Source of the DNA: Streptomonospora litoralis
GTDB lineage: Bacteria > Actinomycetota > Actinomycetes > Streptosporangiales > Streptosporangiaceae
Length of the DNA: 64,000 nt
Direction: 5' to 3'
Assembly: GCF_004323735.1 (NCBI RefSeq)
Contig: NZ_CP036455.1
Span: forward strand, 1,607,101 to 1,671,100
Shown here: in pieces, positions 3,556 to 47,640 of the stretch
Layout: each line of letters starts with the position of its first letter
Numbering within the stretch: the first letter of the stretch is position 1
Translations under genes and position numbers: made by a program
The notes under the pieces: generated by a model
What the model was told of the DNA's origin: nothing
Seen by the model: only the letters and a program-made list of their open reading frames with translations
The model's database searches: none

Positions 3556-4500
3556 TCACACCGCCTCGGCGCCGCCCAGAGCGTCGTCGAGCGTCCACTG
3601 CACCCGGGTCGCGGCCTCTTGGAGCGCGCGCAGCGTGGCCTCGATCGCCGGGCGGCGCATGCTGGTGGCGCGCACCACGGCGCGTACCTCGCGCGCCGGG
3701 GCCTCGGGCAGGCGCCGGAAGGTGAGCCCCGACGTGCCGGCCCCCAGCGCGAGCGCGGGCACCGCGGCGATACCGATCCCCCGTGCCACCAGGCTGAGGA
3801 TGGTGCCCTGGCCCTGGAACTCCCAGGCGGCCGCGGGAGCCCCGCCCAAGGCGGCGAACAGCTTGTCGGTGCCGATGCGCGAGGGCTCTCCGCTCGGCGC
3901 GGCGATCCAGGGCTCGTCCAGCAGCCGGTGCAGTTCGACCGGCCGCCGGGTGTCGGCCAGCGGATGGTCGGTCGGCAGTGCCAGGACGAGGGGATCGTGT
4001 AGCAGGTGCAGGTGGCGGAGCTTGCCCGCCCCGCTTTCGGGGCGGCGCCCCGACCAGTCGTCGATCACCGCGATGTCCACCTCCGCGGAGGAGACCTGGC
4101 GTGCTCCGGCCTCACCGACGCTCTGCCGCAGCACCAGCTGCATGCCCTCGTGCCGGCGCAGGCTCTGCGCCAGCAGGGGGGCGAACGCGACCGCGGCCGT
4201 GGGGAACGCCGTCACGGTGACCGTCCCCACGGCGACGTCGCTCTGCGCCGCCAGCACCGACTCCGCGGCCTCGACCATGGCCAGGATCTGCTCGGCGTGC
4301 ACGACCAGCAGGCGGCCGCTGTCGGTCAGCTCGGCGCTGCGCGCGGTACGGTCCAGCAGCGGCGTTCCCGCTTGGCGCTCCAGTGCCGACAGCTGCTGCG
4401 AGACCGCCGAAGGCGTGTAGCCCAGGGCCTCGGCGGTGCCGGCGATGGTGCCCTGCTCCGCGAACTCCTTGAGTAGTTGCAGCCTCCGCAGATCAAGCAT
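3556..4500 (-). CDS. LysR family transcriptional regulator
   Basis: The 314-residue protein has the LysR N-terminal helix-turn-helix (LDLRRLQLLKEFAEQGTIAG, then ALGYTPSAVSQQLSALERQA) followed by the linker helix and a periplasmic-binding-protein-like effector domain from about residue 90 to 300. It is transcribed away from the aminotransferase gene starting at 4640. A 19-bp interrupted palindrome of LysR type (T-N11-A) lies 12 bp upstream of its ATG, so autoregulation plus control of the aminotransferase is the simplest model. The co-inducer is unknown; an amino acid or keto acid would fit the neighbour. Confidence 0.88.
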   Translation of the reverse strand: MLDLRRLQLLKEFAEQGTIAGTAEALGYTPSAVSQQLSALERQAGTPLLDRTARSAELTDSGRLLVVHAEQILAMVEAAESVLAAQSDVAVGTVTVTAFPTAAVAFAPLLAQSLRRHEGMQLVLRQSVGEAGARQVSSAEVDIAVIDDWSGRRPESGAGKLRHLHLLHDPLVLALPTDHPLADTRRPVELHRLLDEPWIAAPSGEPSRIGTDKLFAALGGAPAAAWEFQGQGTILSLVARGIGIAAVPALALGAGTSGLTFRRLPEAPAREVRAVVRATSMRRPAIEATLRALQEAATRVQWTLDDALGGAEAV

Positions 4501-32462: not shown

Positions 32463-32839
32463 ACTCGCCGCCCTCCCCGCGCGCCCGCGCACTGCGCGGC
32501 CACCCGCGTCACGGTGAACCCTTCCCGCCCCATCATGCCCGACAGCGGGCGGCGTCCGATGCGCCGGTTCTCCACAAGCGGCGGACGGGTGTGGTGCGGG
32601 GCGGGGCTGATGCGCTTGACTTGAAATAAGAGGTTCCCCCGGAGCCCCCGCGCTGTCGTGCCGCGATTCCGCGGTCGTCTCAGGGCGCCGGACGCGGCGC
32701 GCCGCTCCGACCACTCGTCCACAAGCGCTCTTGCCGGGCGCCGCCGCCGGGTGGTGGCGTGGCACTATGGGGGGCGTTGCACCCGGTGCCACAAGCCCCC
32801 GGTGCGACATCCGCGACCAGCGACATCCGTGAGGTGCCA
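32463..32839. other. Divergent regulatory region upstream of deoC, 377 bp
   Basis: An AT-rich pocket (CTTGACTTGAAATAAGAGG, about 32614-32632) stands out and could hold a promoter for either direction. Nearer to deoC, GGCACTATGG (about 32761) resembles actinobacterial -10 regions. No regulator binding site is recognised. Confidence 0.35.
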
Positions 32840-33790
32840 GTGCCCGAAACCGCCCTTCCGCCCGATCCGGCGGCGGAGTTGTCGAACACTTCGTTGCGGG
32901 CGCTGCTGCACGGCCTGCCCGGCGTCGACGAGGTCGGCGCGCAGGCGCGCGCGGCAGACCTCTCCACCCGCTCCATCAAGACCACCGCCAAGGCGCGGGC
33001 GATCGACCTCGCGATCAGCATGATCGACCTCACCACCCTGGAGGGCGCCGACACTCCCGGCAAGGTCCGGGCGCTCTCGGCCAAGGCCGTGCGCCCCGAC
33101 CCGACCGACCCGACTGTGCCCCCGGTCGCCGCCGTGTGCGTCTACTCCGACCTCGTCGCCGCGGCCGCCGAGACGCTGACCGGCTCCGGAGTCGGCGTGG
33201 CCTCGGTCGCCACCGCGTTCCCCGCGGGCCGGGCGCCACTGGAGGCCAAACTCGCCGACACCCGCCGCGCGGTCGCCGACGGCGCAGCCGAGATCGACAT
33301 GGTCATCGACCGGGGCGCGTTCCTCGCTGGCGACTACCGCGCCGTTTACGACGAGATCACCGCGGTCAAACAGGCCTGCGGCGCCGCCCACCTCAAGGTG
33401 ATCCTGGAGACCGGCGAACTCGCCACCTACGACAACGTCCGCCGCGCCTCGTGGCTGGCCATCCTCGCCGGAGCCGACTTCATCAAGACCTCCACGGGCA
33501 AGGTGGCGCCCGCCGCGACGCTCCCCGTCACCCTGGTCATGCTGGAGGCGGTGCGCGACCACCACGCCGCCACCGGCCACCGCGTCGGCGTCAAGCCCGC
33601 CGGCGGTATCCGCACCGCCAAGGACGCCATGAAGTACCTGGTCCTGGTGAACGAGGTCGCCGGAGACGGCTGGCTGGACCCCGCCTACTTCCGCCTCGGC
33701 GCGTCCAGCCTGCTCAACGACCTGCTCATGCAGCGGACCCGGCTCTCCACGGGCACCTACTCCGGCCCCGACTACTACACCCTGGACTGA
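32840..33790 (+). CDS. deoC: Deoxyribose-phosphate aldolase
   Basis: This 316-residue class I aldolase cleaves 2-deoxyribose-5-phosphate into glyceraldehyde-3-phosphate and acetaldehyde. The Schiff-base lysine lies in ADFIKTSTGKVAP; MVIDRGAFLAGDY, VILETGEL and VGVKPAGGIRT are further family blocks. An N-terminal extension of about 60 residues, compared with E. coli DeoC, is usual in the longer eukaryote-like/actinobacterial group. GTG 32840 is preferred because GAGG precedes it by a few bases; GTG 32834 is an alternative. It opens an operon with two aldehyde dehydrogenase genes, which would handle the acetaldehyde. Confidence 0.92.
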   Translation: MPETALPPDPAAELSNTSLRALLHGLPGVDEVGAQARAADLSTRSIKTTAKARAIDLAISMIDLTTLEGADTPGKVRALSAKAVRPDPTDPTVPPVAAVCVYSDLVAAAAETLTGSGVGVASVATAFPAGRAPLEAKLADTRRAVADGAAEIDMVIDRGAFLAGDYRAVYDEITAVKQACGAAHLKVILETGELATYDNVRRASWLAILAGADFIKTSTGKVAPAATLPVTLVMLEAVRDHHAATGHRVGVKPAGGIRTAKDAMKYLVLVNEVAGDGWLDPAYFRLGASSLLNDLLMQRTRLSTGTYSGPDYYTLD

Positions 33791-33801
33791 GAGGCCGACC
33801 A

Positions 33802-35259
33802 GTGGCAGAACAGGCCGAGCGGATCCTCGAGTACGCGCCCGCCCCGGAGTCGCGCTCCGCGGTGCGGCTGCGCCCTTCCTACGAACTGTTCATCGACGGC
33901 GGGTTCGTGCCCGCCAAGTCCGGCGAGCACATGGCTACGGCCAACCCCGCCGACGAGGAGCACCTGGCCCACGTCTCGGTCGCCGGCGAGACCGACGTGG
34001 ACCGCGCGATCGCAGCGGCCCGGCGCGCGTTCGAAGGCGCATGGGGGGCGATGCCGGGCGCCGAACGGGGCAAGTACCTGTTCCGGATCGCCCGCATTCT
34101 CCAGGAGCGCTCCCGCGAACTCGCCGTGCTGGAGACCCTGGACAACGGCAAGCCCGTCAAAGAGACCCGCGACGTCGACCTTCCGCTGGCCGCCGCGCAC
34201 TTCTTCTACCACGCGGGCTGGGCCGACAAGCTCGACCACGCGGGACTGGGTCCCGCGCCGCGCCCGGTCGGCGTGGCCGCCCAAGTCATCCCGTGGAACT
34301 TCCCGCTGCTGATGCTGGCGTGGAAGATCGCGCCCGCGCTGGCCGCCGGCAACACCGTGGTGCTCAAGCCCGCCGAGACCACCCCGCTGACGGCGCTGGT
34401 CTTCGCCGAGATCTGCCAGGAGGCCGATCTCCCGCCCGGCGTCGTCAACATCGTCACCGGCGCCGGCGAGACCGGGCGGACCCTGGTAGGCCACCCCGGC
34501 GCCGACAAGGTCGCCTTCACCGGATCCACCGCCGTCGGCCGCGAGATCGCGCGCTCGGTGGCGGGCACCGGCAAGCGCCTCACCCTGGAGTTGGGCGGCA
34601 AGGGCGCCAACATCGTCTACGACGACGCGGCACTGGACCAGGCCGTCGAAGGCATCGTCTCCGGAATCTTCTTCAACCAGGGCCACGTGTGCTGCGCCGG
34701 ATCCCGGCTGCTGGTGCAGGAGTCGGTCGCCGAGGAGGTGCTGGCCCGGCTGCGCGCCCGCATCGAGCGGCTGCGGTTGGGCGACCCGCTGGACAAGAAC
34801 ACCGACATCGGCGCCATCAACTCCGCCGAGCAGCTGGAGCGCATCCGCGAGCTGTACCGAGCGGGGGCCGAGGAGGGCGCCCAGAGCTGGTCGCCGCAGT
34901 GCCCGCTGCCCGAGCGCGGCTACTGGTTCGCCCCCACCGTGTTCACCGGTGTCACCCAGGCCCACCGCATCGCCCGCGAGGAGATCTTCGGCCCCGTCCT
35001 CTCGGTGCTGACGTTCCGCACCCCCGACGAAGCGGTGGCCAAGGCCAACAACACCCCCTACGGGCTTTCGGCGGGGGTGTGGACCGAGAAGGGTTCGCGC
35101 ATGCTGTGGACCGCCGAGCAGCTGCGCGCGGGCGTCGTCTGGTCCAACACGTTCAACAAGCTCGACCCGGCCAGCCCCTTCGGCGGGTACAAGGAGTCCG
35201 GCTACGGCCGGGAGGGCGGCCGCCACGGACTGGAGGCATACCTTGTCCACGCCGCCTGA
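33802..35259 (+). CDS. Aldehyde dehydrogenase (catalytically complete)
   Basis: The 485-residue NAD(P)-dependent enzyme has PWNFPLLMLAWKIAPALAAG, the cofactor segment FTGSTAVGREIA, Glu263 in LELGGKGANIVYDD and catalytic Cys297 in FFNQGHVCCAGSR, then EEIFGPVLSVLTF and the C-terminal PFGGYKESGYGREGG. It starts at GTG 33802, 11 bp after deoC, so they are co-transcribed. The most economical role is oxidation of acetaldehyde released by DeoC to acetate. Its last 17 bases overlap the next gene, which encodes a related but truncated protein. Confidence 0.92.
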   Translation: MAEQAERILEYAPAPESRSAVRLRPSYELFIDGGFVPAKSGEHMATANPADEEHLAHVSVAGETDVDRAIAAARRAFEGAWGAMPGAERGKYLFRIARILQERSRELAVLETLDNGKPVKETRDVDLPLAAAHFFYHAGWADKLDHAGLGPAPRPVGVAAQVIPWNFPLLMLAWKIAPALAAGNTVVLKPAETTPLTALVFAEICQEADLPPGVVNIVTGAGETGRTLVGHPGADKVAFTGSTAVGREIARSVAGTGKRLTLELGGKGANIVYDDAALDQAVEGIVSGIFFNQGHVCCAGSRLLVQESVAEEVLARLRARIERLRLGDPLDKNTDIGAINSAEQLERIRELYRAGAEEGAQSWSPQCPLPERGYWFAPTVFTGVTQAHRIAREEIFGPVLSVLTFRTPDEAVAKANNTPYGLSAGVWTEKGSRMLWTAEQLRAGVVWSNTFNKLDPASPFGGYKESGYGREGGRHGLEAYLVHAA

Positions 35260-36349
35260 ACACCCCGAACCCGCCTCCGCCCCGGGCGCACAGACCGACG
35301 GGCCCGGCGCCGCCGACGGGCGGCCCGAGTCCGCCGGCCGCGAGCCCGGCGGTGCGTCGGCCCGCCCCGAAGTACACGCCGAGCCGGCCGAGCTCGCCGA
35401 ACCGGTCGAGGGCGCCGAGGCCACCCGGCCGACAGCACCCGCCGGCGCCGCCCGGGCGGGCGCCGACGTCCCCCTCGGCGCACCCGCCGCCGGGCGCATC
35501 CCGGTGCGCAAGACCTACAAGCTCTACGTGGGCGGAGCCTTTCCCCGCTCCGAGTCAGGCAGGTGCTACCCCGTGACCGCATCCGACGGCGGCCACCTCG
35601 CCAACGCCGCGCTCGCCTCGCGAAAGGACGCCCGCGACGCCGTGGTGGCCGCGCGCAAGGCGTTCTCCGGCTGGTCCGGCCGCACCGCCTACAACCGCGG
35701 CCAGATTCTTTACCGCATCGCCGAGGTGATGGAGGGCCGCCGCGCCCAGTTCGCCGCCGAGATCGCCGAGGCCGACGGCATCGGCGCCGAGAAGGCCGAC
35801 GAGCTGGTCTCCGCGGCGATCGACCGGTGGGTCTACTACGCCGGGTGGCCCGACAAGATCGCCCAGGTCCTCGGCGCTGCCAACCCGGTCTCGGGCCCCT
35901 ACTTCAACCTGTCCAAGCCCGAGCCCGCCGGCGTTGTGGCCGTCCTCGCTCCGCCCATGGGTCCGCTGCTGGGGCTGGTGTCGGTCGTCGCCCCGGTGAT
36001 CGCCACGGGCAACACCGCCGTCGTGCTCGCCAGTGAGCGCGCGCCCCTGCCCGCCGTCACCCTCGCCGAGGCGCTGGCCGTCTCCGACCTCCCCGGCGGC
36101 GTCGTCAACATCCTCACCGGCAAGGCGGCCGACCTGGCACCGCACCTGGCATCCCACGCCGACGTCGACGGACTCGACCTCACCGGCGCCGGCCCCGATT
36201 CCGCCGCAGAGCTGGAACGCAGCGCCGCCGACACCCTCAAGCGGGTTCTGCGCCCCGCCGGCCGCGAGGACTGGCTCGCCACCCCGGGCACCGCGCGGAT
36301 GACCCCCTTTCTGGAGACGAAGACGGTCTGGCACCCCGTCGGGACCTGA
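35243..36349 (+). CDS. Aldehyde dehydrogenase-like protein lacking the catalytic domain
   Basis: The 368-residue product starts at TTG 35243, six bases after GGAGG and inside the end of the previous gene. Residues 1-85 are a Pro/Ala/Glu-rich disordered leader. Residues 86-340 align with the NAD-binding half of aldehyde dehydrogenases (RKTYKLYVGGAFPRSESGRC, AAIDRWVYYAGWPDKIAQVL, VVNILTGKAADLAP). The ELGGK glutamate is replaced and the protein ends soon after, so the catalytic cysteine region and oligomerisation end are missing. The only Cys (SGRCYP) is not at the catalytic position. A scaffold, inhibitor or NAD-binding partner of the preceding enzyme is likely (inference). No C-terminal remnant follows, arguing against a recent frameshift. 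Confidence 0.85.
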   Translation: MSTPPEHPEPASAPGAQTDGPGAADGRPESAGREPGGASARPEVHAEPAELAEPVEGAEATRPTAPAGAARAGADVPLGAPAAGRIPVRKTYKLYVGGAFPRSESGRCYPVTASDGGHLANAALASRKDARDAVVAARKAFSGWSGRTAYNRGQILYRIAEVMEGRRAQFAAEIAEADGIGAEKADELVSAAIDRWVYYAGWPDKIAQVLGAANPVSGPYFNLSKPEPAGVVAVLAPPMGPLLGLVSVVAPVIATGNTAVVLASERAPLPAVTLAEALAVSDLPGGVVNILTGKAADLAPHLASHADVDGLDLTGAGPDSAAELERSAADTLKRVLRPAGREDWLATPGTARMTPFLETKTVWHPVGT

Positions 36350-36426
36350 GACCTCGGGCCCCGGACCAACGCGTCGAGACGACAGCGCGCCCCGGCGCCG
36401 ACCCGGAGCAGAGGGAGGTGATCGGC

Positions 36427-36969
36427 TTGGCCGAAGACACGGGTGCCGCGGCACTGCGCTCCGCGGTCGACCTGGTGCGCCTCGACCGGCCCGGCCCGCA
36501 GGTCGAGCGCCTGCGCACGGCCGTCCTGCGGCTGCGTGTGGCGCCCGGCCAGCGCGGCCTCGTCACCGAGGCGGTCGAGACCCTGCCCCGCGCCGACGCC
36601 GACCCCGACCGCACTCCCTTCGCGGTACTGGTGGATGCGCAACCCGCCGGGTACGGCATCATCGACCGGGGCGGCGCCCTGGCCGAGCTGTCCGGCATCG
36701 CCGCAGACACAGCGCGTGCCGTCCTGCTGCGTGCCTTCTACCTCGCCCCGGAACACCAGGGGCGCGGTATCGGGCGCGCGGCATGCGCCGCCCTCGCCCC
36801 CCTCGTACGCAGCGTGCACCCGCACGCCGACGCGGCGTTCGTCATCGTCGGCGAGGCCAACCGGGCCGCCGTGCGCGCCTACCGCGCCGGCGGCTTCCTC
36901 CCCACGGGAACGCGCCTGACCAGCGCAACCGCCGGACAGCAGACGGTGCTGCGCAAGGAGGTGGCGTGA
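36427..36969 (+). CDS. GNAT family N-acetyltransferase
   Basis: The 180-residue protein has the acetyl-CoA-binding motif A, FYLAPEHQGRGIGRAACAAL, and the following ANRAAVRAYRAGGF segment typical of GNAT proteins. TTG 36427 was chosen because GGGAGG lies 7-8 bases upstream; a GTG at 36418 overlaps that site and is less likely. It sits 77 bp after the truncated dehydrogenase gene and 121 bp before the purine nucleoside phosphorylase gene, within the nucleoside operon. The acceptor (an amine on a small molecule or a protein lysine) is unknown; regulation of the pathway enzymes by acetylation is possible but unproven. Confidence 0.78.
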   Translation: MAEDTGAAALRSAVDLVRLDRPGPQVERLRTAVLRLRVAPGQRGLVTEAVETLPRADADPDRTPFAVLVDAQPAGYGIIDRGGALAELSGIAADTARAVLLRAFYLAPEHQGRGIGRAACAALAPLVRSVHPHADAAFVIVGEANRAAVRAYRAGGFLPTGTRLTSATAGQQTVLRKEVA

Positions 36970-37090: not shown

Positions 37091-37921
37091 GTGACCACCG
37101 ATCCGCACACCACCGCCACGAAGGCGGCCGAAGAGCTGCGCTCCCGTACCGGCGTCGACTCCTACGACGTCGCCCTGGTCATGGGATCGGGGTGGGCGCC
37201 CGCCGCCGACACACTCGGTGCCGGCGGGACCGAGCTGCCGACCAGCGAGCTGACGGGATTTCTGCCGCCGGCCGTCGAAGGGCACAGCGGCACCGTCCGC
37301 AGCGTGCGCAGCGGAGACCGCGACCTGCTCGTCTTCCTCGGCCGCACCCACCTCTACGAAGGGCACGGCGCCGATCCGGTCGCCCACGGCGTCCGCACGG
37401 CCGTCGCCGCGGGCGCCTCCACCGTGATCCTCACCAACGCGGCCGGATCGCTCGATCCCGACCTGGGCGTGGGATCGCCGGTCCTCATCGCCGACCACAT
37501 CAACCTCACCGGCCAGTCGCCACTGCGCGGCGCCACCTTCGTCGATCTCACCGACACCTACTCGGCGGTGCTGCGCGCGATCGCCAAGGAGGTCGACCCG
37601 TCGCTGCCCGAGGGCGTATACGCGGCCATGCCCGGTCCGCACTTCGAGACTCCCGCAGAGATCCGCATGCTGCGCGCCATGGGCGCCGACCTGGTGGGCA
37701 TGTCCACGGCTCTGGAGGCGATCGCCGCACGCGAGGCCGGCGCCTCGGTACTGGGCCTGTCCCTGGTGACCAACATCGCCGCGGGCCTGTCGGGCCAGCC
37801 CCTGGACCACGAAGAGGTCCTGGCCGCCGGTAGGGACTCCGCGACCGACGTCGGCGCGTTGCTGGCCTCCGTGGTCGAGCGCCTCGACGCGCCCTCCCAG
37901 GGGGCCGGCGCCGGCGCGTAG
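37091..37921 (+). CDS. Purine-nucleoside phosphorylase (trimeric, family II)
   Basis: The 276-residue enzyme phosphorolyses purine (deoxy)nucleosides to base and (deoxy)ribose-1-phosphate. Family landmarks are VALVMGSGWAPAAD for phosphate, FLGRTHLYEGHG, ILTNAAGSLDPDLGVGS, AMPGPHFETPAEIRMLRAMG and VGMSTALEAIAAREAGASVL. The GTG at 37091 is preceded by GGAGGT. It is followed by the phosphosugar mutase that would use its product. Confidence 0.92.
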   Translation: MTTDPHTTATKAAEELRSRTGVDSYDVALVMGSGWAPAADTLGAGGTELPTSELTGFLPPAVEGHSGTVRSVRSGDRDLLVFLGRTHLYEGHGADPVAHGVRTAVAAGASTVILTNAAGSLDPDLGVGSPVLIADHINLTGQSPLRGATFVDLTDTYSAVLRAIAKEVDPSLPEGVYAAMPGPHFETPAEIRMLRAMGADLVGMSTALEAIAAREAGASVLGLSLVTNIAAGLSGQPLDHEEVLAAGRDSATDVGALLASVVERLDAPSQGAGAGA

Positions 37922-38024: not shown

Positions 38025-39722
38025 ATGGCCGACTCCTATCGCACGCTCGCGCAGGCGTGGCTCGACCAGGACCCCGATCCGGTGACCCGCGAGGAGTTGG
38101 CCGCCCTGCTCGACTCCGGTGACGACGCCGCCTTGGCCGACCGGTTCGGCGCGCGCCTGGAGTTCGGTACCGCCGGGCTGCGGGGCAGGCTGGGCGCCGG
38201 TCCCAACCGGATGAACCGGGTGACGGTCATGCGCGCCGCCGCGGGCGTGGCCCACTGGACCGGCGCCGGCGGCACCGTGGTCATCGGCTACGACGCGCGC
38301 CACCGCTCCGCCGACTTCGCCCGCGACTCCGCCGCCGTGCTGGCCGGGGCCGGCTGCACCGCGCTGCTGCTGCCCCGTGCCCTGCCCACGCCGGTGCTGG
38401 CGTTCGCGGTACGCGACCTGGGCGCCGACGCCGGGATCATGGTCACCGCCAGCCACAACCCGCCCGAGGACAACGGCTACAAGGTCTTCACAGGCACCGC
38501 AACCGCCGGAACCGGTGACGACGCGGGCAGCCAGATCGTTCCGCCCGCCGACACCGACATCTCCGCCGCCATCGCGGCGGCCGGACCGGTCGACCGGCTG
38601 CCGCTGTCGCAGGACTGGCACCTGCTGGGCGAGGAGACCGTCGAGCGCTACCTCGCCGCCGTGTGCAGACTGCCGCTGGGCACCGACCGCGACATCACCA
38701 CCACCTACACCCCGCTGCACGGCGTCGGCGGCCGGATTCTGGCCGCCGCGTTCTCCTGGGCGGGATTCCCGCCGCCGCGCACGGTGACCGAGCAGAACCG
38801 GCCCGATCCCGATTTCCCCACGGTCCAATTCCCCAACCCCGAGGAGCCCGGCGCCATGGATCTGGCGCTGGCGACCGGGCGCGACGAGGGCACCGACATC
38901 ATCCTGGCCAACGACCCCGACGCCGACCGACTGGCGGTGGCCGTACCCGGCCACGGGCTGCTCACCGGCGACCAGGTGGGCGGACTGCTCGCCGAGTACG
39001 TGCTGGGCCGCACCAGCGGGGCCGACCGGATGGTGGCGACCACCATCGTCTCCGCCGGGCTGCTGCCCAAGATCGCCGCCGCGCACGGGGTGCGCTGCGC
39101 CGAGACGCTGACGGGCTTCAAGTGGCTGGCGCGCGCCGCCGGGCCCGGCGAGCGGTGCGTATTCGCCTACGAGGAGGCGCTGGGCTACTGCCTGGGCGGC
39201 GACGCGGGGCGGCCGGTGGCCGACAAGGACGGCATCGGAGCGGCGCTGGCGGTGTCGGCGCTCGCGGCCGAGGCCAAGCGCGAGGGACGTACCCTGCTCG
39301 ACCTGCTGGACGACCAGGCACGCCGCTACGGCCTGCACGCCACGCGCCAGGTGTCGGTGCGTGTGAGCGACCTCGCCGCCATCCCGGCGACCATGGAGCG
39401 GCTGCGCGCCGAGCCGCCGCGCGCATTCGGCGCCCTGCGGGTGGAGGCGGTCGAGGACTTCTCCGCGGGACACGCCGACCTGCCCGCGACCGACGCGCTG
39501 CGCTACCTCCTGGTCGGCCCTGAGAGCGCGGCGGAAGCGGACGGCCCCGCGGGCGGCCGCCTCACCCTGCGCCCGTCGGGGACCGAACCCAAGCTGAAGG
39601 CGTACCTGGAGGTCGTGCTGCCGGTGGAGGACGACGTCGCCGACGTCCGCGCCGCCGCGGAGGCCCAGCTGGCGGAACTGGCCCGCGAGGTGGAGGCGCT
39701 GTTTCCGCAGACGTCCGCGTAG
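38025..39722 (+). CDS. Phosphohexomutase-superfamily enzyme (PGM2/PmmB-like), possible phosphopentomutase
   Basis: The 565-residue protein has the alpha-D-phosphohexomutase architecture: EFGTAGLRGRLGAGPNRMNR, the phosphoserine loop TASHNPPEDNGYKVF, metal loop DPDADRLAVAV, sugar loop GYCLGGDAG/YEEALGYCLGG and the phosphate-binding RPSGTEPKLKAYLE. Length and motifs match the PGM2/PmmB branch, whose human member acts on ribose-1- and deoxyribose-1-phosphate. Its position directly after purine nucleoside phosphorylase, with deoC upstream and no DeoB in the region, supports a phosphopentomutase role feeding deoC, but phosphomannomutase or phosphoglucomutase activity cannot be excluded. Confidence 0.88.
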   Translation: MADSYRTLAQAWLDQDPDPVTREELAALLDSGDDAALADRFGARLEFGTAGLRGRLGAGPNRMNRVTVMRAAAGVAHWTGAGGTVVIGYDARHRSADFARDSAAVLAGAGCTALLLPRALPTPVLAFAVRDLGADAGIMVTASHNPPEDNGYKVFTGTATAGTGDDAGSQIVPPADTDISAAIAAAGPVDRLPLSQDWHLLGEETVERYLAAVCRLPLGTDRDITTTYTPLHGVGGRILAAAFSWAGFPPPRTVTEQNRPDPDFPTVQFPNPEEPGAMDLALATGRDEGTDIILANDPDADRLAVAVPGHGLLTGDQVGGLLAEYVLGRTSGADRMVATTIVSAGLLPKIAAAHGVRCAETLTGFKWLARAAGPGERCVFAYEEALGYCLGGDAGRPVADKDGIGAALAVSALAAEAKREGRTLLDLLDDQARRYGLHATRQVSVRVSDLAAIPATMERLRAEPPRAFGALRVEAVEDFSAGHADLPATDALRYLLVGPESAAEADGPAGGRLTLRPSGTEPKLKAYLEVVLPVEDDVADVRAAAEAQLAELAREVEALFPQTSA

Positions 39723-39916: not shown

Positions 39917-41188
39917 CTACCCGATCCGGTCGACGACGAGCGGTAGGCGCCGCTCCGGTCCGTCGAGGGAGAAAGAGTCGGCGAGCACCTCGGCCGCTCG
40001 GTCGAACCGTGCCGGGTCGTCGGTGTGCAGGGTGAACAGCGGACGCCCGGCGCGGACCGGCTCGCCCGGCTTGGCGTGCAGTTCGACACCGGCGCCCGGC
40101 GAGACCGCGTCCTCCTTGCGGGCGCGGCCCGCACCGAGGCGCCACGCCGCGAAGCCCACCGCGTAGGCGTCGAGGCGGGTGAGCGTCCCGGTCGCGGGGG
40201 AGAGGATGTCGCGCTGCTCTGCGGCCACCGGCAGCGCGGCGTCGGGGTCTCCGCCCTGTGCCGCGACCATCCGCCGCCAGGACTCCATCGCCGAGCCGTC
40301 GCGCAGCGCGTCGGCCGGGTCGGTACCGCCGCTGAGACCGGCTGCCCGCAGCATCTCCCGCGCCAGTTCGACCGTCAGCTCCACCACGTCGTCGGGGCCC
40401 CCGCCGGAGAGCACCTCGACGGCCTCGGCCACCTCCAGGGCGTTGCCGACACGGCGGCCCAGCGGGGTGTCCATCGCGGTGAGCAGCGCACGCGTGCGTA
40501 CCCCGTGGTCGGTGCCGATGGCCACCATGGTCTCGGCGAGCTCCCGGGCGGAGGCGGCGTCCTTCATGAACGCCCCCGAGCCGACCTTGACGTCCAGCAC
40601 CAGCGAGGAGGTGCCCTCGGCGAGCTTCTTGGACATGATCGACGCGGCGATCAGCGGAATCGACTCCACCGTGCCGGTCACGTCGCGCAGTGCGTAGAGC
40701 TTGCGGTCGGCGGGTGCCAGATCCGGCCCGGCGGCGCACACGGCGCAGCCCGCGGTGACGAGCTGCTCCAGCATCTGCTCCGGGGTGAGGTCGGCACGCC
40801 AGCCGGGGACGGACTCCAGCTTGTCCAGGGTTCCGCCGGTGTGCCCCAGGCCGCGCCCCGACAGCTGCGGCACCGCGGCACCGCAGGCGGCGACGGTCGG
40901 TGTCAGCGGCAGGGTGATCTTGTCGCCGACGCCGCCGGTGGAGTGCTTATCGGTGGTCGGCCGGGCCAGCCCGGTGAAGTCCAGCCGCTGCCCGGAGTCC
41001 AGCATGGCCCGCGTCCACTCGCTCACCTCGGCGCGCGTCATGCCCCGCCACACCACGGCCATGCTCAGCGCCGCCATCTGCTCCTCGGCGACTTCGCCGC
41101 GCGTGTAGGCGTCGACGACCCACCTGATCTGGTCCCGGGTGAGCTCGCCGCCGTCGCGTTTGGCGGTGATGACGTCGATGGCCTCCAT
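39917..41188 (-). CDS. deoA: Thymidine phosphorylase
   Basis: The 423-residue enzyme releases thymine or uracil and deoxyribose-1-phosphate. It has the family signature SGRGLGHTGGTLDKLESVPG and the phosphate-binding TTDKHSTGGVGDKITLPLT, plus the C-terminal PYNP domain (GVELHAKPGEPVRAG). The ATG at 41188 follows a perfect AGGAGG. It is the last gene of the uptake operon, 88 bp after the cytidine deaminase gene, so imported pyrimidine nucleosides are deaminated and then phosphorolysed. Confidence 0.95.
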   Translation of the reverse strand: MEAIDVITAKRDGGELTRDQIRWVVDAYTRGEVAEEQMAALSMAVVWRGMTRAEVSEWTRAMLDSGQRLDFTGLARPTTDKHSTGGVGDKITLPLTPTVAACGAAVPQLSGRGLGHTGGTLDKLESVPGWRADLTPEQMLEQLVTAGCAVCAAGPDLAPADRKLYALRDVTGTVESIPLIAASIMSKKLAEGTSSLVLDVKVGSGAFMKDAASARELAETMVAIGTDHGVRTRALLTAMDTPLGRRVGNALEVAEAVEVLSGGGPDDVVELTVELAREMLRAAGLSGGTDPADALRDGSAMESWRRMVAAQGGDPDAALPVAAEQRDILSPATGTLTRLDAYAVGFAAWRLGAGRARKEDAVSPGAGVELHAKPGEPVRAGRPLFTLHTDDPARFDRAAEVLADSFSLDGPERRLPLVVDRIG

Positions 41189-41276
41189 CTGATCCTCCTG
41201 TCGGCGGTGGTAGGCGAGCGTGCTCCGTCGTGCACAACCCGGCGCCGGCGGCGGCGCCGCCGGGCCGACTGCGGCA

Positions 41277-41747
41277 TCATGGAATAGGGGGTCCCCACCC
41301 GCGGCCCGGCTCGCCGCCGGCCTGCGGCTCACCCGGGTCCAGATCGCGCGGGCCGAACGCCTGCGGAAGCAGCGCATCCAGGGTGCGTATCCCCTCGGGG
41401 GTGTCCACCAGCAGCGCCGGCCCGCCGTGCTCGTAGAGGAGTTGGCGGCAGCGACCGCACGGCATCAGCGCGGAGCCGGCGCGGTCGACGCAGGCGAACG
41501 CGCGCAGGCGGCCGCCGCCGGTGGCGTGCAGGGCCGACACCAGGCCGCACTCGGCGCACAGAGCGAGGCCGTAGGACGCGTTCTCCACGTTGCAGCCCAC
41601 GACCGTGCGTCCGTCGTCGACCAGCGCGGCCGCCCCGACGGGGAAGCCGGAGTAAGGCGCGTACGCGCGCTCCATGGCGCGCGCGGCCTGTGCCCGCAGC
41701 GCCGCCCAGTCGACGCCGTCCCGCTCGGCGCCCGCATGCCCGGTCAC
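41277..41747 (-). CDS. cdd: Cytidine deaminase (tetrameric type)
   Basis: The 156-residue zinc enzyme converts (deoxy)cytidine to (deoxy)uridine. Zinc ligands and catalytic acid are in ALCAECGLVSAL (Cys-Ala-Glu) and LMPCGRCRQLLYEHGG (PCGxC), the three-cysteine arrangement of tetrameric CDAs; PYSGFPVGAAAL and VENASYGLALCAECG complete the site. GTG 41747 is the chosen start. A 20-residue Gly/Pro-rich C-terminal tail is additional. It is encoded between the transporter permease and deoA. Confidence 0.93.
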   Translation of the reverse strand: MTGHAGAERDGVDWAALRAQAARAMERAYAPYSGFPVGAAALVDDGRTVVGCNVENASYGLALCAECGLVSALHATGGGRLRAFACVDRAGSALMPCGRCRQLLYEHGGPALLVDTPEGIRTLDALLPQAFGPRDLDPGEPQAGGEPGRGWGPPIP

Positions 41748-41919
41748 GCCGCGCCCCCGTCCGAGCAGTGCCGGCAGCGCCGCGGAAACCGCCCGCGGAA
41801 CGGTTCCGGGAGACGGGCGCAGCTGCCTCCCGCGAGCCGTCTGCGCCGCTGCGGACCCCGCATCTCGCAGGAGACGGGCCGGGTGCCGCCGATGCGGCCG
41901 CCCGCCCGGCGCCGGGCGC

Positions 41920-43395
41920 TCACGCGTGTCCCCGGCGCCACTGGCGGCCCACGTTCGCCGGCGGGCGGAGGCGCTGGGATGCCAGGGCCAGCACGAGCAG
42001 GGTGGCGATGTGCGGGCTGTAGGTGACCAGTTGGCCCGGCAGCGAGTCGGTGCCCAGGTACCACAGCAGCACGACGACTCCGGCGGGTGCCGCGACCAGC
42101 GCGGAGGCCGGGAGGCTCCCGGCCGCCTCCGGCCAGGTGCGCACCGTCTGGAGGGCGGCGGCCGCAGCCGCGGCCGCCCCGAGCGCGGTGACGGCCCACC
42201 ACCAGGCGGCACCGCCGGTGACCGCGACCGCGCCGCCGAGGGCGGCCACGGCCGCGCCGCCCGCGAACACCGCGCAGAGGCCCGCCGTGGCGGTGAAGGC
42301 GCTCGTTCCCCGCGTGCGCCGGAGAGCCGCGGCCAGCATCAGCACGGCGGCGACCAGCAGCGCCGCGGCGATCAGCAGCAGCAGCGCATGCACCGCGCCT
42401 CCGCCGCCGCGTACCTGCAGCGCGTCGGTGAATCCGAACAGCCCGGCGCCCATGGCCAGCCCGCCCGGTCGCCAGTTGCCGAAGATCATCGCCGCCAGTC
42501 CGATGTAGCCCCGCCCGCCGGTCTGGCCCTCCTGGTAGACGGAGGAGGCCACCATCGCGAGGAAGACTCCGCCCATGCCCGCGAAGCCGCCGGAGAGCAC
42601 GACCGCGGTGAACTTGTAGGTGTAGACGGGCACGCCCAGCGACTCCGCGGCGTCGGGGTTCTCCCCGCACGACCGCAGCCGCAGCCCGAACGGGGTGTGC
42701 CACAGCACCAGGAACGTCAGCGGCGCCAGCAGGATCGCCAGCAGCGTCACCACCGACATCCCCGTCGTGGTACCGACGATCAGCGAAGCGGTGTCGGCCA
42801 CCAGGAAGATCCCCGACTCCCGGGCCGGCGCCAGCGCGTCCGCCACGAACGGCAGCCCGATCCGCGGGAACTCCGGAAGCTGCGGCGACTGCGCCGCACC
42901 GCCCCCCGGTGCGCCCTGGAAGAACAGCAGGGACAGGTAGCGCATCGCGCCTACCGCGAGGATGTTGATCGCCACGCCCGAGACGATGTGGTCGACGCCG
43001 AAGGTCACGGTCGCCACCGCATGGATCAGCCCGCCGGCCATGCCGCCCAGCACCCCGGCGAGCAGCCCCGCCCACGGGCTCTCGAAGCTCCACGCGAAGT
43101 ACGCGCCGAACCAGGTGCCCAGCACCATCATGCCTTCGAGGCCGATGTTGATGATCCCGGCGCGCTCGGCCCACAGGCCGCCGAGCCCGGCGAGGCCGAT
43201 GGGCACGGCGAACGCCAGTGTCGCCTGGATGGTGCCGGCGCTGGTCAGCATCGGCTGGCCGGTGATGGCCCGCACACCGGCCAGGGCCACGAACGCCGCG
43301 ACCGCGATGCTGACGAAGCGCCACCGCGAGCGGGCGCCGCGCTGCCGCCCGGCCGGGGCGGCGGATGCCGGGGAGACGCTCAGATCCTGGCTCAT
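41920..43395 (-). CDS. ABC transporter permease (nucleoside/BMP type), second subunit
   Basis: The 491-residue protein contains a BPD_transp_2 permease domain in its first 330 residues, including LAGLGGLWAERAGIINIGLE, VSGVAINILAVGAMRYLSLL and the EAA-like SCGENPDAAESLGVPVYTYK. Unlike standard subunits of about 300-320 residues, about 150 residues with further hydrophobic helices (LLLLIAAALLVAAVLMLAAA onwards) follow. Its ATG overlaps the preceding permease stop by four bases. With the partner permease, ATPase and BMP lipoprotein it should form a nucleoside importer. Confidence 0.9.
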   Translation of the reverse strand: MSQDLSVSPASAAPAGRQRGARSRWRFVSIAVAAFVALAGVRAITGQPMLTSAGTIQATLAFAVPIGLAGLGGLWAERAGIINIGLEGMMVLGTWFGAYFAWSFESPWAGLLAGVLGGMAGGLIHAVATVTFGVDHIVSGVAINILAVGAMRYLSLLFFQGAPGGGAAQSPQLPEFPRIGLPFVADALAPARESGIFLVADTASLIVGTTTGMSVVTLLAILLAPLTFLVLWHTPFGLRLRSCGENPDAAESLGVPVYTYKFTAVVLSGGFAGMGGVFLAMVASSVYQEGQTGGRGYIGLAAMIFGNWRPGGLAMGAGLFGFTDALQVRGGGGAVHALLLLIAAALLVAAVLMLAAALRRTRGTSAFTATAGLCAVFAGGAAVAALGGAVAVTGGAAWWWAVTALGAAAAAAAALQTVRTWPEAAGSLPASALVAAPAGVVVLLWYLGTDSLPGQLVTYSPHIATLLVLALASQRLRPPANVGRQWRRGHA

Positions 43396-44828
43396 GACGC
43401 CGCCGCCTCCTCACGCTCGCCGCGGGCCAGCTCCCGGCCGACCTGCTGCTGCTGGTAGCGCAGACCCCAGCGGTGCACCACCTCGTACACCACGACCACG
43501 GTCAGCACGATGGTGGCCTGGGTGACCACGGCGATCTCCTTGGGAATGCCTTCGAAATCCAGGATCTGGCTGGACTGGTCCAGAAAGGCCCAGAACAGCG
43601 CGGCGAACGCGATGCCGACGGGGTGGTTGCGCCCCAGCAGGGCGATGGCGATGCCGGTGAAGCCCAGCCCGGTGGGGAAGTCCAGCGCGTAGTAGTGCGA
43701 CTGGCCGAGCAGCTGCGGTACGCCGACCAGCCCGGCGACCATCCCCGAGATCACCATCGACAGCAGCACCATGCGCTTGATGTCGATCCCGCTGGCCCGC
43801 GCCGCCGTCGGGGACTGGCCGGTGGCGCGCAGGTCGAAACCGAACCGGGTGCGGTTGAGCATCAGCCAGTAGCCGACACCGACCGCCATCGCCAGCAGCA
43901 CCAGGCCGAAAATCTCGCGGTCGGCGCCCATGAACCCGGCGGGGATGCCCGGCACCCAGCCCGTTTCGGCGATCTCGCGGGTGCCGATGTTGTTCGTGCT
44001 GATCTGCACCGCCAGCCGGTCGGTGTTGAGCAGGTAGGCGGTGATGCCGGTGGCAACCGAGTTCAGCATGATCGTGGAGATCACCTCGGAGACCCCGCGG
44101 GCCACCTTCAGGTAGCCGGCGATCCCGGCCCAGAAGCCGCCGACGGCCACCGCCACCGCGATGATGACGATCTGGTGGATGACCGGCGGCAGCACCCAGG
44201 CGCCGCCCACCGCCGCCGCCAGCAGCGCCGCCAGTCGGTACTGGCCGTCCACGCCGATGTTGAACAGCTTCATCTTGAAGCCGATCGCCACCGCCACGGC
44301 GGAGAGGTAGAACGTGGTGCCGGAGTTGACGACGAGCACCAGACTGTCGGGCTGCAGCCCGAACTCCAGCATCCGGCCGAAGGCGTGGAAGGGCTGCACA
44401 CCGCTGACCCGCAGCACCAGCGCGGTCACCGCCAGAGCCAGCGCCCCCGCGGCCACCACCGCGCCGAACGACAGCGCCAGCGTGGTGGCCAGCCGCCGGT
44501 AGAGCAGGAAGGCGGCCGCCGAGCCGATCAGGGCGCCGAGCGGGTAGGCCACCGGCTCGATCAGCCACCAGTCGATGATCCCGCCGCCGAGCAGGCCCGC
44601 GGTCACCGACAGCAGCAGCGCGATCGGCGTCACCAGCAGCCGGTGCAGGCGGGTGTCGGCGTCCTCGGTGGTGGGCCGGGTGAGCGCCACGACCAGCGCG
44701 AACGCCAGCGCGACGCCGATCGCGGCCGCCGCGGGAGCCAGCAGGCCCCGGTCGGCCGCGGCGGTCACACCCGCGCCCAGAACGGCTGCGAGGGCCACCG
44801 CCGCCCAGATGGGGATGGAGGTCCTCAT
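43392..44828 (-). CDS. ABC transporter permease (nucleoside/BMP type), first subunit
   Basis: This 478-residue subunit has several N-terminal helices (SIPIWAAVALAAVLGAGVTA and following) before the BPD_transp_2 core at about residues 110-440: FNIGVDGQYRLAALLAAAVG, EVISTIMLNSVATGITAYLL, LRATGQSPTAARASGIDIKR and GFTGIAIALLGRNHPVGIAF. It overlaps the ATPase gene stop by four bases upstream and the second permease start downstream, so translation of all three is probably coupled. Confidence 0.9.
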   Translation of the reverse strand: MRTSIPIWAAVALAAVLGAGVTAAADRGLLAPAAAAIGVALAFALVVALTRPTTEDADTRLHRLLVTPIALLLSVTAGLLGGGIIDWWLIEPVAYPLGALIGSAAAFLLYRRLATTLALSFGAVVAAGALALAVTALVLRVSGVQPFHAFGRMLEFGLQPDSLVLVVNSGTTFYLSAVAVAIGFKMKLFNIGVDGQYRLAALLAAAVGGAWVLPPVIHQIVIIAVAVAVGGFWAGIAGYLKVARGVSEVISTIMLNSVATGITAYLLNTDRLAVQISTNNIGTREIAETGWVPGIPAGFMGADREIFGLVLLAMAVGVGYWLMLNRTRFGFDLRATGQSPTAARASGIDIKRMVLLSMVISGMVAGLVGVPQLLGQSHYYALDFPTGLGFTGIAIALLGRNHPVGIAFAALFWAFLDQSSQILDFEGIPKEIAVVTQATIVLTVVVVYEVVHRWGLRYQQQQVGRELARGEREEAAAS

Positions 44829-46393
44829 GCGCCGTCCTCGCCTTCGCCCGTGCCGGTCCGGCTGTCCAGCCCGGCGCCGGTCATCGCCGCGCCGAGCTCC
44901 TCAGGGGTCACCGTCATCGGGTCCGCCTCGGCCACCAGCCGGCCGCGCAGGATGACGTGCAGCGTGTCGGACATGCCGATCAGCTCATCCAGATCGGCCG
45001 AAACCAGCAGCACCGCCAGCCCTTCGCCGCGCGCCCGGCGCAGATGCTCCCAGATCGCCGCCTGCGCGCCCACGTCGACCCCGCGCGTGGGGTGGGCGGC
45101 CACGAGTACCTTGGGTCGGCCGCGCATCTCCCGGCCGACGATCAGCTTCTGCTGGTTGCCGCCGCTCAGCGCCTCGGCGATCACGTCGATACCGGGCGTG
45201 CGCACGTCGTAGTCGGCCACGATCCGCTCGGTGTCGGCGCGCGCGCCCGCCCGGTCGATCCAGATGCCCCGGGCGTTGGGCGCCTCCCCCTGGTGGCCGA
45301 GGATGCGGTTCTCCCACAGCGACGACTCCAGCAGCACGCCGTGGCGGGTGCGGTCCTCGGGGATGTAGCCGACCCCGGCCTCGCGGATGTCCAGGGTGCC
45401 CCAGCCGGTGATGTCGCGCCCGTCCAGGCGGACGGTGCCCTGCTGGACGGGGCGCATACCCATTACGGCCTCGATCAGCTCGGACTGGCCGTTGCCCTCC
45501 ACGCCCGCGATACCGACGATCTCGCCCTCGCGCATGGTCAGGGACACGTCGTCGACCACCGGGCGTCCGCCGGGCTCGCTCACCCGCAGGCCGCTGATCT
45601 CCAGCATCGGGCGGTCGGTCACCGTGGACTCGCGCAGTTCGGGCACGGGCAGTTCGCCGCCGACCATCAGCGTGGCCAGTTCCCGGGCGCTGGTGGCGGC
45701 GGGATCGACGGTGGCCACGGTGGTGCCGCGGCGGATCACGGTGATGGTGTCGGCGACCGACAGCACCTCGTCGAGCTTGTGCGAGATGAAGATGACCGTC
45801 AGGCCCTCCCGCTTGAGCTCGCGCAGGTTGTCGAACAGCTCGTCGACCTCCTGGGGCACCAGCACCGCGGTCGGCTCGTCCAGGATGACGATATCGGCGC
45901 CCCGGTAGAGGACTTTGAGGATCTCCACGCGCTGGCGCTGGCCCACGCCCAGCTCCTCCATCAGCCGGTCGGGTTCGACACCCAGCCCGTACTGCTCGGA
46001 GAGCGAGGTGATCCGCGCCCGCGCGTTGCGGCCGATGCCGACGCGGCCCTCGGCGCCCAGCACGACGTTCTCCAGCACGGTGAGGTTGTCGGCGAGCATG
46101 AAGTGCTGGTGCACCATGCCGATGCCGTGCTTGATGGCGTCGGAGGGGGAGTTCAGCCGCACCGTGGCACCCTTGACCGCGATGGTGCCCTCGTCCTGTC
46201 GGTGCATGCCGTAAAGCGTCTTCATCAGGGTGGACTTGCCGGCCCCGTTCTCGCCCACGATGGCGTGGACGGTACCGGGCCGCACCGCGATGTCGATGTC
46301 GTGGTTGGCCACGACCCCCGGGAACCTCTTGGTGATCCCGCGCAGCTCGACGGCGGGAGGTGCCTCCCCGCCGCCGGATGGTGCGCTGCTCAT
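44825..46393 (-). CDS. ABC transporter ATP-binding protein with two nucleotide-binding domains
   Basis: The 522-residue protein has tandem ABC domains, as in sugar and nucleoside importers of the CUT2/BMP group. Domain 1 shows Walker A VGENGAGKSTLMKTL, signature ELGVGQRQRVEILKVL and Walker B DIVILDEPTAVL. Domain 2 has the degenerate P-loop AGVEGNGQSELIEAV and signature ALSGGNQQKLIVGREM, a normal asymmetry in this family. It energises import by the two permeases encoded downstream. A 170-bp spacer with a strong hairpin separates it from the lipoprotein gene. Confidence 0.93.
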   Translation of the reverse strand: MSSAPSGGGEAPPAVELRGITKRFPGVVANHDIDIAVRPGTVHAIVGENGAGKSTLMKTLYGMHRQDEGTIAVKGATVRLNSPSDAIKHGIGMVHQHFMLADNLTVLENVVLGAEGRVGIGRNARARITSLSEQYGLGVEPDRLMEELGVGQRQRVEILKVLYRGADIVILDEPTAVLVPQEVDELFDNLRELKREGLTVIFISHKLDEVLSVADTITVIRRGTTVATVDPAATSARELATLMVGGELPVPELRESTVTDRPMLEISGLRVSEPGGRPVVDDVSLTMREGEIVGIAGVEGNGQSELIEAVMGMRPVQQGTVRLDGRDITGWGTLDIREAGVGYIPEDRTRHGVLLESSLWENRILGHQGEAPNARGIWIDRAGARADTERIVADYDVRTPGIDVIAEALSGGNQQKLIVGREMRGRPKVLVAAHPTRGVDVGAQAAIWEHLRRARGEGLAVLLVSADLDELIGMSDTLHVILRGRLVAEADPMTVTPEELGAAMTGAGLDSRTGTGEGEDGA

Positions 46394-46474
46394 CCGACTC
46401 CTCGATACGTGGGGCCGCCGGTTCCCGGCACCGGCGGCGCCGGTCCGCCGGCGGCGGAGCTGGGGGAGGGCGGA

Positions 46475-46520
46475 CCGCGGTACCGGGGCCGGGGCACTCT
46501 CCCCGGCCCCGGTACCGCGG
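46475..46520 (-). terminator. 20-bp-arm intra-operon hairpin (attenuator or mRNA stabiliser)
   Basis: Perfect 20-bp arms at 46475-46494 and 46501-46520 (starting CCGCGGTACCGGGG) enclose a 6-nt loop, without a T-tract. It lies between the substrate-binding lipoprotein gene and the ATPase gene of the same operon, the usual place for partial terminators or 3'-end stabilisers that raise binding-protein expression relative to the membrane parts. Confidence 0.75.
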
Positions 46521-46563
46521 CGACCGCGCCGGGGCTGGGCCCGCCTGCGCGGGCCGCACCCGG

Positions 46564-47640
46564 CTACGGCTCGGTCGGGACCTCGATCTCGCCGTCGATG
46601 ATCTGCTGCTTCAGCTCGTCGAGCTGCCCCTCGATGTCGGAGATCAGCTCCTCGTTGGACTTGGAGTAGCCGACACCGCCGCTGGCCAGGTCGAAGCGCC
46701 GGATGCCCGATTCGACGTCGCCCTGCTGCGCCGACTGCACGAACTCGAACACCGCGGTGTCCACGCGCTTGATCGCCGAGGTGAGCACATACTGCTTCTG
46801 GTCCTCGGGCGCGGTCTTGTACTGGTCGCTGTCCACACCGATGAACAGCTGATCCGCTGCGGCCACGGCCTCCAGCACGCCGTTGCCCGAGGCTCCGGCC
46901 GCGTGGTAAATGACGTCGGCGCCCTGGTCGAGCTGGCCTTCGGCGGTGGATCGGCCGGTCGCCGGGTCGGAGAAACCGCTCATGTCCGGCGGCTGGGTGA
47001 GGTAGGAGGTCTCGATCTCGATGTCGGGGTTGATCTTCTGCGCCCCGGCGATGTAACCGGCCTCGAACTTCTTGATCAGCGGTGTCTCCACGCCGCCGAC
47101 GAAGCCGATGTGGTCCTCCTCCGTCTTGAGCGCGGCCGCCGCGCCCACCAGGTAGGACGCCTGCTCCTCGGTGAAGACGAGGCTGGTGACGTTGTCCTGG
47201 TCGGTGATCTCCGAGTCGACGATGGCGAAGTTGACGTCGGAGTAGGCCTCGTTGCTCGCGACGTTGATCATCGGCTGCGTGTAGGCGAAGCCCACCCCGA
47301 TGATCACGTCGAAGCCCTGGTCGGCCATGTTCTTCAGACGTTCTTCTTTGTCGACGTCCGACTCGCCCTCGCTGGGCTCGAAGTCCTGGATGTCGTCCCC
47401 GCTGATCCCCAGCTCTTCCTCGACGCGCTGGAGCCCGCGGTAGGCCGAGTCGTTGAACGACTTGTCCCCTCGGCCGCCGACGTCGTAGGCGAGGCCGACG
47501 CGGATCCCGTCGTCGCCTCCTCCGCCTTCGCCGTCGCCCCCGCCGGCGTTCCCGCCCTGGGGGTTGTCACAGGCCGTCAAGGCCAGGGTAAGCACGCCTG
47601 CCGCTGTGGCGGCGGCGAGCTTGGCGGCACGCTTGTTCAA
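46564..47640 (-). CDS. BMP family nucleoside-binding lipoprotein
   Basis: The 358-residue lipoprotein has a signal peptide with lipobox LALTAC, giving lipidation at Cys24, followed by a Gly/Glu/Asp-rich linker and a PF02608 domain from about residue 46: VGLAYDVGGRGDKSFNDSAY, VIIGVGFAYTQPMINVASNE, FVGGVETPLIKKFEAGYIAG and YHAAGASGNGVLEAVAAADQ. It is anchored outside the membrane and delivers nucleosides to the permeases. TTG at 47640 is the start, with GGGGAG about 9 bases upstream. Neighbouring cdd and deoA support a nucleoside ligand. Confidence 0.92.
   Translation of the reverse strand: MNKRAAKLAAATAAGVLTLALTACDNPQGGNAGGGDGEGGGGDDGIRVGLAYDVGGRGDKSFNDSAYRGLQRVEEELGISGDDIQDFEPSEGESDVDKEERLKNMADQGFDVIIGVGFAYTQPMINVASNEAYSDVNFAIVDSEITDQDNVTSLVFTEEQASYLVGAAAALKTEEDHIGFVGGVETPLIKKFEAGYIAGAQKINPDIEIETSYLTQPPDMSGFSDPATGRSTAEGQLDQGADVIYHAAGASGNGVLEAVAAADQLFIGVDSDQYKTAPEDQKQYVLTSAIKRVDTAVFEFVQSAQQGDVESGIRRFDLASGGVGYSKSNEELISDIEGQLDELKQQIIDGEIEVPTEP

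Follow-up and report, generated by a model that had tools for sequence, protein, structure and literature searches.

Two adjacent genes downstream of deoC in Streptomonospora litoralis encode a putative split form of ALDH16

Two aldehyde dehydrogenase (ALDH) genes present directly downstream of deoC in Streptomonospora litoralis appear, from their sequences, to be a split, two-gene ALDH16. They lie in the window analysed here, a stretch of 64,000 nucleotides of contig NZ_CP036455.1 (positions 1,607,101 to 1,671,100). The second gene resembles a truncated aldehyde dehydrogenase, which makes it an annotation trap, but is a conserved subunit. We infer a complex, its activity and its substrate: the two products would, very likely, constitute an obligate heteromeric dehydrogenase that probably oxidises acetaldehyde after DeoC.

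Results

Features of the locus are listed in Table 1, where the coordinate of deoC, the start codon of which is uncertain, is that of the first ORF start. The deoC, catalytic ALDH and pseudo-subunit genes are all co-oriented, with a gap of 11 bp between deoC and the ALDH gene. The two ALDH genes are in different frames. The GGAGG of the second gene is located 6 bases upstream of its TTG, where it overlies codons of the GLEAY motif of the catalytic subunit, and this TTG is the sole ATG, GTG, TTG or CTG codon in the pseudo-subunit frame upstream of the folded core. The overlap of 17 bp with an own ribosome site, as given in the preliminary description, was thereby confirmed. At 17 of 22 split loci of close relatives and at 47 of 59 in the Actinomycetota sample, the pseudo-subunit frame likewise has a start that overlaps the end of the ALDH gene; this applied to none of the 18 split loci in Verrucomicrobiota.

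Table 1. Features of the deoC-ALDH region (positions of the window)
Feature	Position	Strand	Evidence
deoC, deoxyribose-phosphate aldolase	32759..33790	+	TIGR00126, 174.9 bits (cut-off 117.3); PF01791
Putative catalytic subunit of split ALDH16, 485 aa, GTG start	33802..35259	+	6mvr best PDB match
Shortened oligomerisation hairpin of catalytic subunit, 11 residues	34231..34263	+	Comparison with ordinary ALDH rows
GGAGG ribosome site of pseudo-subunit	35232..35236	+	Sequence
Overlap of catalytic and pseudo-subunit genes, 17 bp	35243..35259	+	Sequence
Putative pseudo-subunit of split ALDH16, 368 aa, TTG start	35243..36349	+	6mvr best PDB match
Disordered, variable leader of pseudo-subunit, 85 aa	35243..35497	+	Low pLDDT; length varies in relatives
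Full-length oligomerisation hairpin of pseudo-subunit, 22 residues	35858..35923	+	Aligned rows; predicted strands 220-228 and 231-235
Conserved terminal strand, residues 357-365	36311..36337	+	Predicted strand; tail pattern
GNAT-family protein, possibly co-transcribed, outside the ALDH16 pair	36418..36969	+	PF00583
Purine-nucleoside phosphorylase	37091..37921	+	TIGR01698 above cut-off; PF01048
Phosphohexomutase-family enzyme	38025..39722	+	PF02878, PF02879, PF02880, PF00408
Thymidine phosphorylase (deoA)	39917..41314	-	NF004490, 624 bits (cut-off 269)

Further downstream, the phosphohexomutase-family enzyme would, from its context, be a phosphopentomutase. Facing the deoC group, positions 39917-47640 of the reverse strand carry genes for thymidine phosphorylase, cytidine deaminase, two BPD_transp_2 permeases, an ABC ATPase and a Bmp/PnrA-like binding protein. 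Together, the deoC group and the facing genes look like a region for uptake and breakdown or salvage of deoxynucleosides. A conserved wider operon did not emerge from the comparison: only a minority of the stretches from relatives carried homologues of the phosphorylase, mutase and deoA, counts that are lower bounds because these stretches are short.

Both proteins shared their best sequence match in the PDB, 6mvr (with its sister entries), the single-chain 767-residue ALDH16 of Loktanella. The catalytic ALDH aligned with residues 10-475 of 6mvr (508 bits) and the pseudo-subunit with residues 475-766, up to the C terminus (142 bits); the match of the latter to the catalytic part of 6mvr was far weaker (51 bits). 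Since consecutive halves of 6mvr were matched, the partner corresponds to the entire second domain of ALDH16 present as its own gene. The preliminary description had taken it for a truncated half enzyme, which did not hold, as it represents the whole C-terminal pseudo-domain. The pseudo-subunit was 44% identical to the C-terminal domain of Loktanella ALDH16, and the catalytic part was 54% identical to a Loktanella ALDH16 (tblastn, L057), above the 40% identity in the catalytic part that delimits the ALDH16 class in PMC8160307. A bacterial-type catalytic Cys is present, as is a second ALDH-like domain devoid of catalytic Cys and Glu, with a Rossmann fold and a strand flap. ALDH16 is one polypeptide and here there are two genes; the pair was therefore filed as a split variant and not as canonical ALDH16.

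The Pfam Aldedh model covered profile positions 1-456 in the catalytic subunit, which retains C297 and E263 of ELGGK; this Cys, the ELGGK Glu, the KPAE Lys and the EIFGP Glu were invariant in all 201 aligned catalytic rows. The catalytic subunit scored below the cut-off for all 25 NCBIfam models listed (of 43 matched), including the ExaC acetaldehyde dehydrogenase model NF050026 (423.4 bits against a cut-off of 900), and hence no specificity was assigned. In the pseudo-subunit the same Pfam model covered positions 14-233 of 461, and both the catalytic Cys and the Glu of ELGGK are missing. That the partner lacks these two residues, next to a complete ALDH directly upstream which keeps both, was thus correctly described earlier. 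The C-terminal end of the pseudo-subunit, LETKTVWHPVG, is a conserved terminal strand, and the catalytic domain is therefore missing from inside rather than by a simple stop half way.

Comparison of the aligned rows revealed that the losses in the two proteins are reciprocal. The oligomerisation hairpin was 19-24 residues long in 18 of 18 ordinary ALDH rows (16 distinct) from this genome and its relatives, the hairpin counts leaving out Actinomycetota ALDHs at 45-52% identity. In catalytic subunits it was shorter: that of the window has 11 residues, 92 of 93 split relatives have 9-13 and all 107 fused rows have 9; the exception was a split catalytic subunit with a hairpin of 20 residues (L170). 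The catalytic chain of the window terminates as GLEAYLVHAA, without a terminal strand. None of 99 split catalytic subunits had an EVKT-type strand after the GL..Y motif: most end a few residues past this motif and a few have longer tails, and one tail ends in EVKGG. Ordinary ALDHs extend beyond it, mostly into an EVKT-type strand. In the pseudo-subunits, the hairpin had 19-22 residues in 214/214 rows, and a loose E/Q-x-K...W-x-P pattern was found in the tails of 192 of 213 rows, a similar strand being recognised by eye in the other 21; a stricter pattern within the last 14 residues was present in 150 of the 213. Each partner thus has what the other has lost: the active subunit is without full hairpin and strand, and the dead one without catalytic domain.

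The model of the pseudo-subunit, built with 35 split rows and no fused protein, had a mean pLDDT of 82.5 with low values mainly in the leader. A fold search with it returned 6mvu, 6mvr and 6mvs as best matches (285-288 columns, rmsd 2.3-2.4), followed by ordinary ALDHs with about 250 columns. A joined single-chain model of both frames of the window, made from an alignment of 50 fused and 68 split rows (1 of 119 rows was misplaced by the aligner), gave a mean pLDDT of 89.6 and a pTM of 0.88, with residues 496-559 disordered. It superposed on 6mvs over 839 columns (TM 0.95 by target length, rmsd 6.4), a result which speaks for compatibility and is not independent proof of docking, since the alignment included fused rows and AlphaFold was probably trained on ALDH16. 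Modelling covered this single chain; a further mark of ALDH16 is an assembly of two units that mimics the classical tetramer.

Most of residues 1-75 of the pseudo-subunit had pLDDT values below 50, and a confident fold started from about residue 88. In close relatives, the ALDH stop codon and the pseudo-subunit core are separated by 5 to 245 bp. The 85-residue leader was thus rightly considered disordered in the preliminary description, but it is a variable linker and not a conserved feature; a conserved functional role of the leader was rejected, as its length varies among relatives.

The split and fused forms were surveyed at 213 loci of relatives in four phyla (Actinomycetota, Pseudomonadota, Verrucomicrobiota and SAR324), of which 109 were fused, 99 split and 5 without ALDH in the stretch. 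Split loci made up 22 of 23 in close relatives and 59 of 60 in the Actinomycetota sample (60 of 92 matching genomes); the remaining two loci had no ALDH in the stretch and none was fused. A search for full-length versions in close relatives, proposed earlier, thus yielded none, only the same short partner. The preliminary description mentioned similar two-dehydrogenase arrangements in other actinomycetes, and these split loci bear this out, with conservation far beyond this genome. Fused genes were found at 79 of 80 loci, nearly all of Rhodobacterales, in a contig scan (best 80 of 594), at 20 of 20 loci in the Pseudomonadota sample (20 of 56 matching genomes) and at 7 of 7 in SAR324 (7 of 20), one of which (L343) has an internal stop in the joined frame. 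Verrucomicrobiota (23 of 30 genomes) had both, 18 of 23 loci being split and 3 fused. Each of the 57 Pseudomonadota matches fell within an open frame of 768 aa or more, which corresponds to the length of the fused form. Quick maximum-likelihood trees of the pseudo-domain (75 rows) and of the catalytic part (81 rows) each placed the fused and split forms one change apart. Six ordinary ALDHs with long branches served to root the latter tree, in which the fused and split forms were sister clades (SH-aLRT 97 and 98).

Some individual loci deserve mention. Just one fused copy, detected among the best 80 of 594 in the contig scan, has an actinomycete label, being on a contig titled Nocardioides marinus (L058, 4552-6903); its C-domain is 72% identical to that of Loktanella, and the copy would represent contamination or a recent transfer. 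A second pseudo-subunit copy, 94% identical to that of the window, is present at L042 (5428-6733, G008:C168), where the stretch contains no deoC and, of the ALDH, just a C-terminal fragment; an intact set is found elsewhere in this genome, at L056. At the SAR324 locus L343 (4484-6865, G1092), the ALDH match begins at 4484 and the frame is open from 5573 only, which is a frame break or a sequence error. In seven verrucomicrobial loci (L299, L305, L306, L307, L309, L311 and L312), the catalytic and pseudo-subunit genes are 1.4-2.2 kb apart, leaving room for another gene.

We determined the co-occurrence of the two genes in whole genomes. In 396 genomes of Actinomycetota, the pseudo-subunit was detected in 92 (E up to 1e-36); for the ALDH16-type catalytic subunit, with a cut-off set afterwards within an empty gap from 1e-174 to 1e-134, the count was also 92. 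Both were present in 91 of the 93 genomes with either, each occurred once alone, and 303 genomes had neither. The two exceptions were contig cuts: G217 has an adjacent ALDH fragment (L203), and in G158 the ALDH meets the contig end. Similarly, 29 of the 30 verrucomicrobial genomes with either gene, out of 240 analysed, had both (catalytic cut-off in the gap between 1e-159 and 1e-130); the pseudo-subunit occurred alone once, in G932 (L315), again a contig cut, and the catalytic subunit never. The genes are apart in three Verrucomicrobiota, on separate contigs in G990 and separated by about 24 kb in G1061 and about 6 kb in G1039. In G1061 and G1039, deoC remains with the catalytic gene; in G990, no deoC was found within 1.5 kb of the genes. 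Fisher tests on these co-occurrences ignore relatedness and only illustrate the counts.

Of 198 loci with ALDH and enough upstream sequence, 194 had deoC upstream on the same strand, within 300 bp at 176 loci and farther away at 18; it was not found at L042, L054, L337 and L343. In another ten verrucomicrobial stretches, taken with flanks of 1.5 kb, deoC was found in 8, and not in L379 and L385. The linkage is common to fused and split forms; its counts reflect constancy and not the number of separate origins, because a linkage shared by related genomes does not amount to independent events.

Discussion

The window differs in various ways from the known systems with which it can be compared. 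Ordinary ALDHs, tetrameric or dimeric (ALDH1/2, betaine aldehyde dehydrogenase), have the fold and catalytic residues in common with the catalytic subunit; however, they carry their own full hairpin and terminal strand and have no pseudo-partner, and the window does not conform to the classical ALDH1/2 type with both elements in the catalytic chain. Proline utilization A (PutA) has a vestigial ALDH-like C-terminal domain beside an active ALDH, within one polypeptide that belongs to the proline pathway; the listed PDB sequence and fold matches include no chain of that name. Human ALDH16A1, of the same named family and compared by description, has two ALDH-like parts. It is described as a pseudoenzyme without the catalytic residues (PMC10650815 and PMC8160307), which the catalytic subunit of the window keeps. 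The closest counterpart is the Loktanella ALDH16 (6mvr, 6mvs, 6mvt, 6mvu), described in a review (PMC8160307), which has the same order of a catalytic ALDH part and a cofactor-type domain without catalytic residues, in one 767-residue chain instead of two genes. In a Loktanella genome (L057) deoC is directly upstream of the fused gene, as in the window. Neither a split ALDH16 nor a link of ALDH16 to deoC was found in the open-licence papers searched; the ALDH16 structure paper, which is outside this set, may mention split forms. The available portions of PMC9007349 and PMC10211241 contain nothing on a split ALDH pair.

We propose that the first gene would encode the catalytic subunit, with NAD-binding and catalytic domains, and the second a pseudo-subunit with a cofactor-type Rossmann fold and an oligomerisation arm that has lost its catalytic domain. 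Translation of the pair is probably coupled through the overlap in this genome. The subunits would bind each other like the two parts of single-chain ALDH16, with the pseudo-subunit contributing its hairpin and terminal strand in place of the arm that the catalytic subunit has lost, and so completing and stabilising the active enzyme. DeoC releases acetaldehyde and glyceraldehyde-3-phosphate (PMC6365646). Being linked to deoC, the pair is probably linked to acetaldehyde. The simplest role suggested by the gene neighbourhood would be oxidation to acetate of the acetaldehyde freed by DeoC from deoxyribose-5-phosphate during deoxynucleoside breakdown. Of the two-component complex handling acetaldehyde that was proposed earlier, the non-catalytic partner and the deoC linkage stand, and acetaldehyde is probable from the neighbourhood.

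Other explanations were weighed against this proposal. A recently truncated, decaying paralogue would fit the Pfam match to the first half of the model only, but has almost no chance of being correct: split loci of two phyla have the same length and end, with an own start and ribosome site, a conserved terminal strand and near-perfect co-occurrence. Recent truncation was rejected also because the ALDH was fused at none of 82 Actinomycetota loci (22 of relatives, 59 of the sample and the window; L058, from the separate contig scan, is excluded). It is very unlikely that the pseudo-subunit acts apart from the catalytic ALDH, whether by scaffolding or regulating DeoC or as a nucleotide-binding sensor. 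The pseudo-subunit is indeed a protein of its own, which here has a long linker, and in some Verrucomicrobiota its gene is 0.5 to 24 kb away from that of the ALDH or even on a different contig; yet the C-terminal domain of single-chain ALDH16 is its closest relative, the lost parts of the two subunits are complementary, and genomes with unlinked genes still have both subunits, deoC staying with the catalytic gene in two of them (L382, L384).

The remaining alternatives retain the split ALDH16. It may act on another aldehyde of nucleoside breakdown, such as deoxyribose or glyceraldehyde-3-phosphate, for which speak the scores of the catalytic subunit below the listed NCBIfam cut-offs, leaving specificity unassigned, and the oxidative routes from deoxyribose in other bacteria described in PMC6365646. 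We regard this as rather unlikely, since DeoC itself makes acetaldehyde (PMC6365646) and deoC is the constant neighbour. That the pair also binds DeoC and channels acetaldehyde, with the pseudo-subunit as docking platform, appears unlikely as well. Analogies are offered by DmpG/DmpF, an aldolase paired with a dehydrogenase, and by PutA with its C-terminal ALDH-like domain, and deoC is linked to both forms of ALDH16; linkage does not show channelling, however, and the deoC-ALDH gap exceeds 300 bp at 18 of 194 loci.

Returning to the proposed heteromeric dehydrogenase, one may speculate, with low expectation of being right, that bacterial ALDH16 is the dedicated partner of DeoC for disposal of acetaldehyde, either as one chain or as an obligate two-gene heteromer with complementary losses; in the boldest form of this idea, the pseudo-subunit would dock DeoC and channel acetaldehyde. 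The roles of human ALDH16A1 are described as not fully understood (PMC10650815), and the near-constant linkage of deoC to both bacterial forms provides a concrete substrate hypothesis for the ALDH16 family. The split form allows the dead domain to be deleted, titrated or exchanged with no need to cut a protein. If the proposal is true, split ALDH16 would be a natural separable system for measuring the work done by the dead domain.
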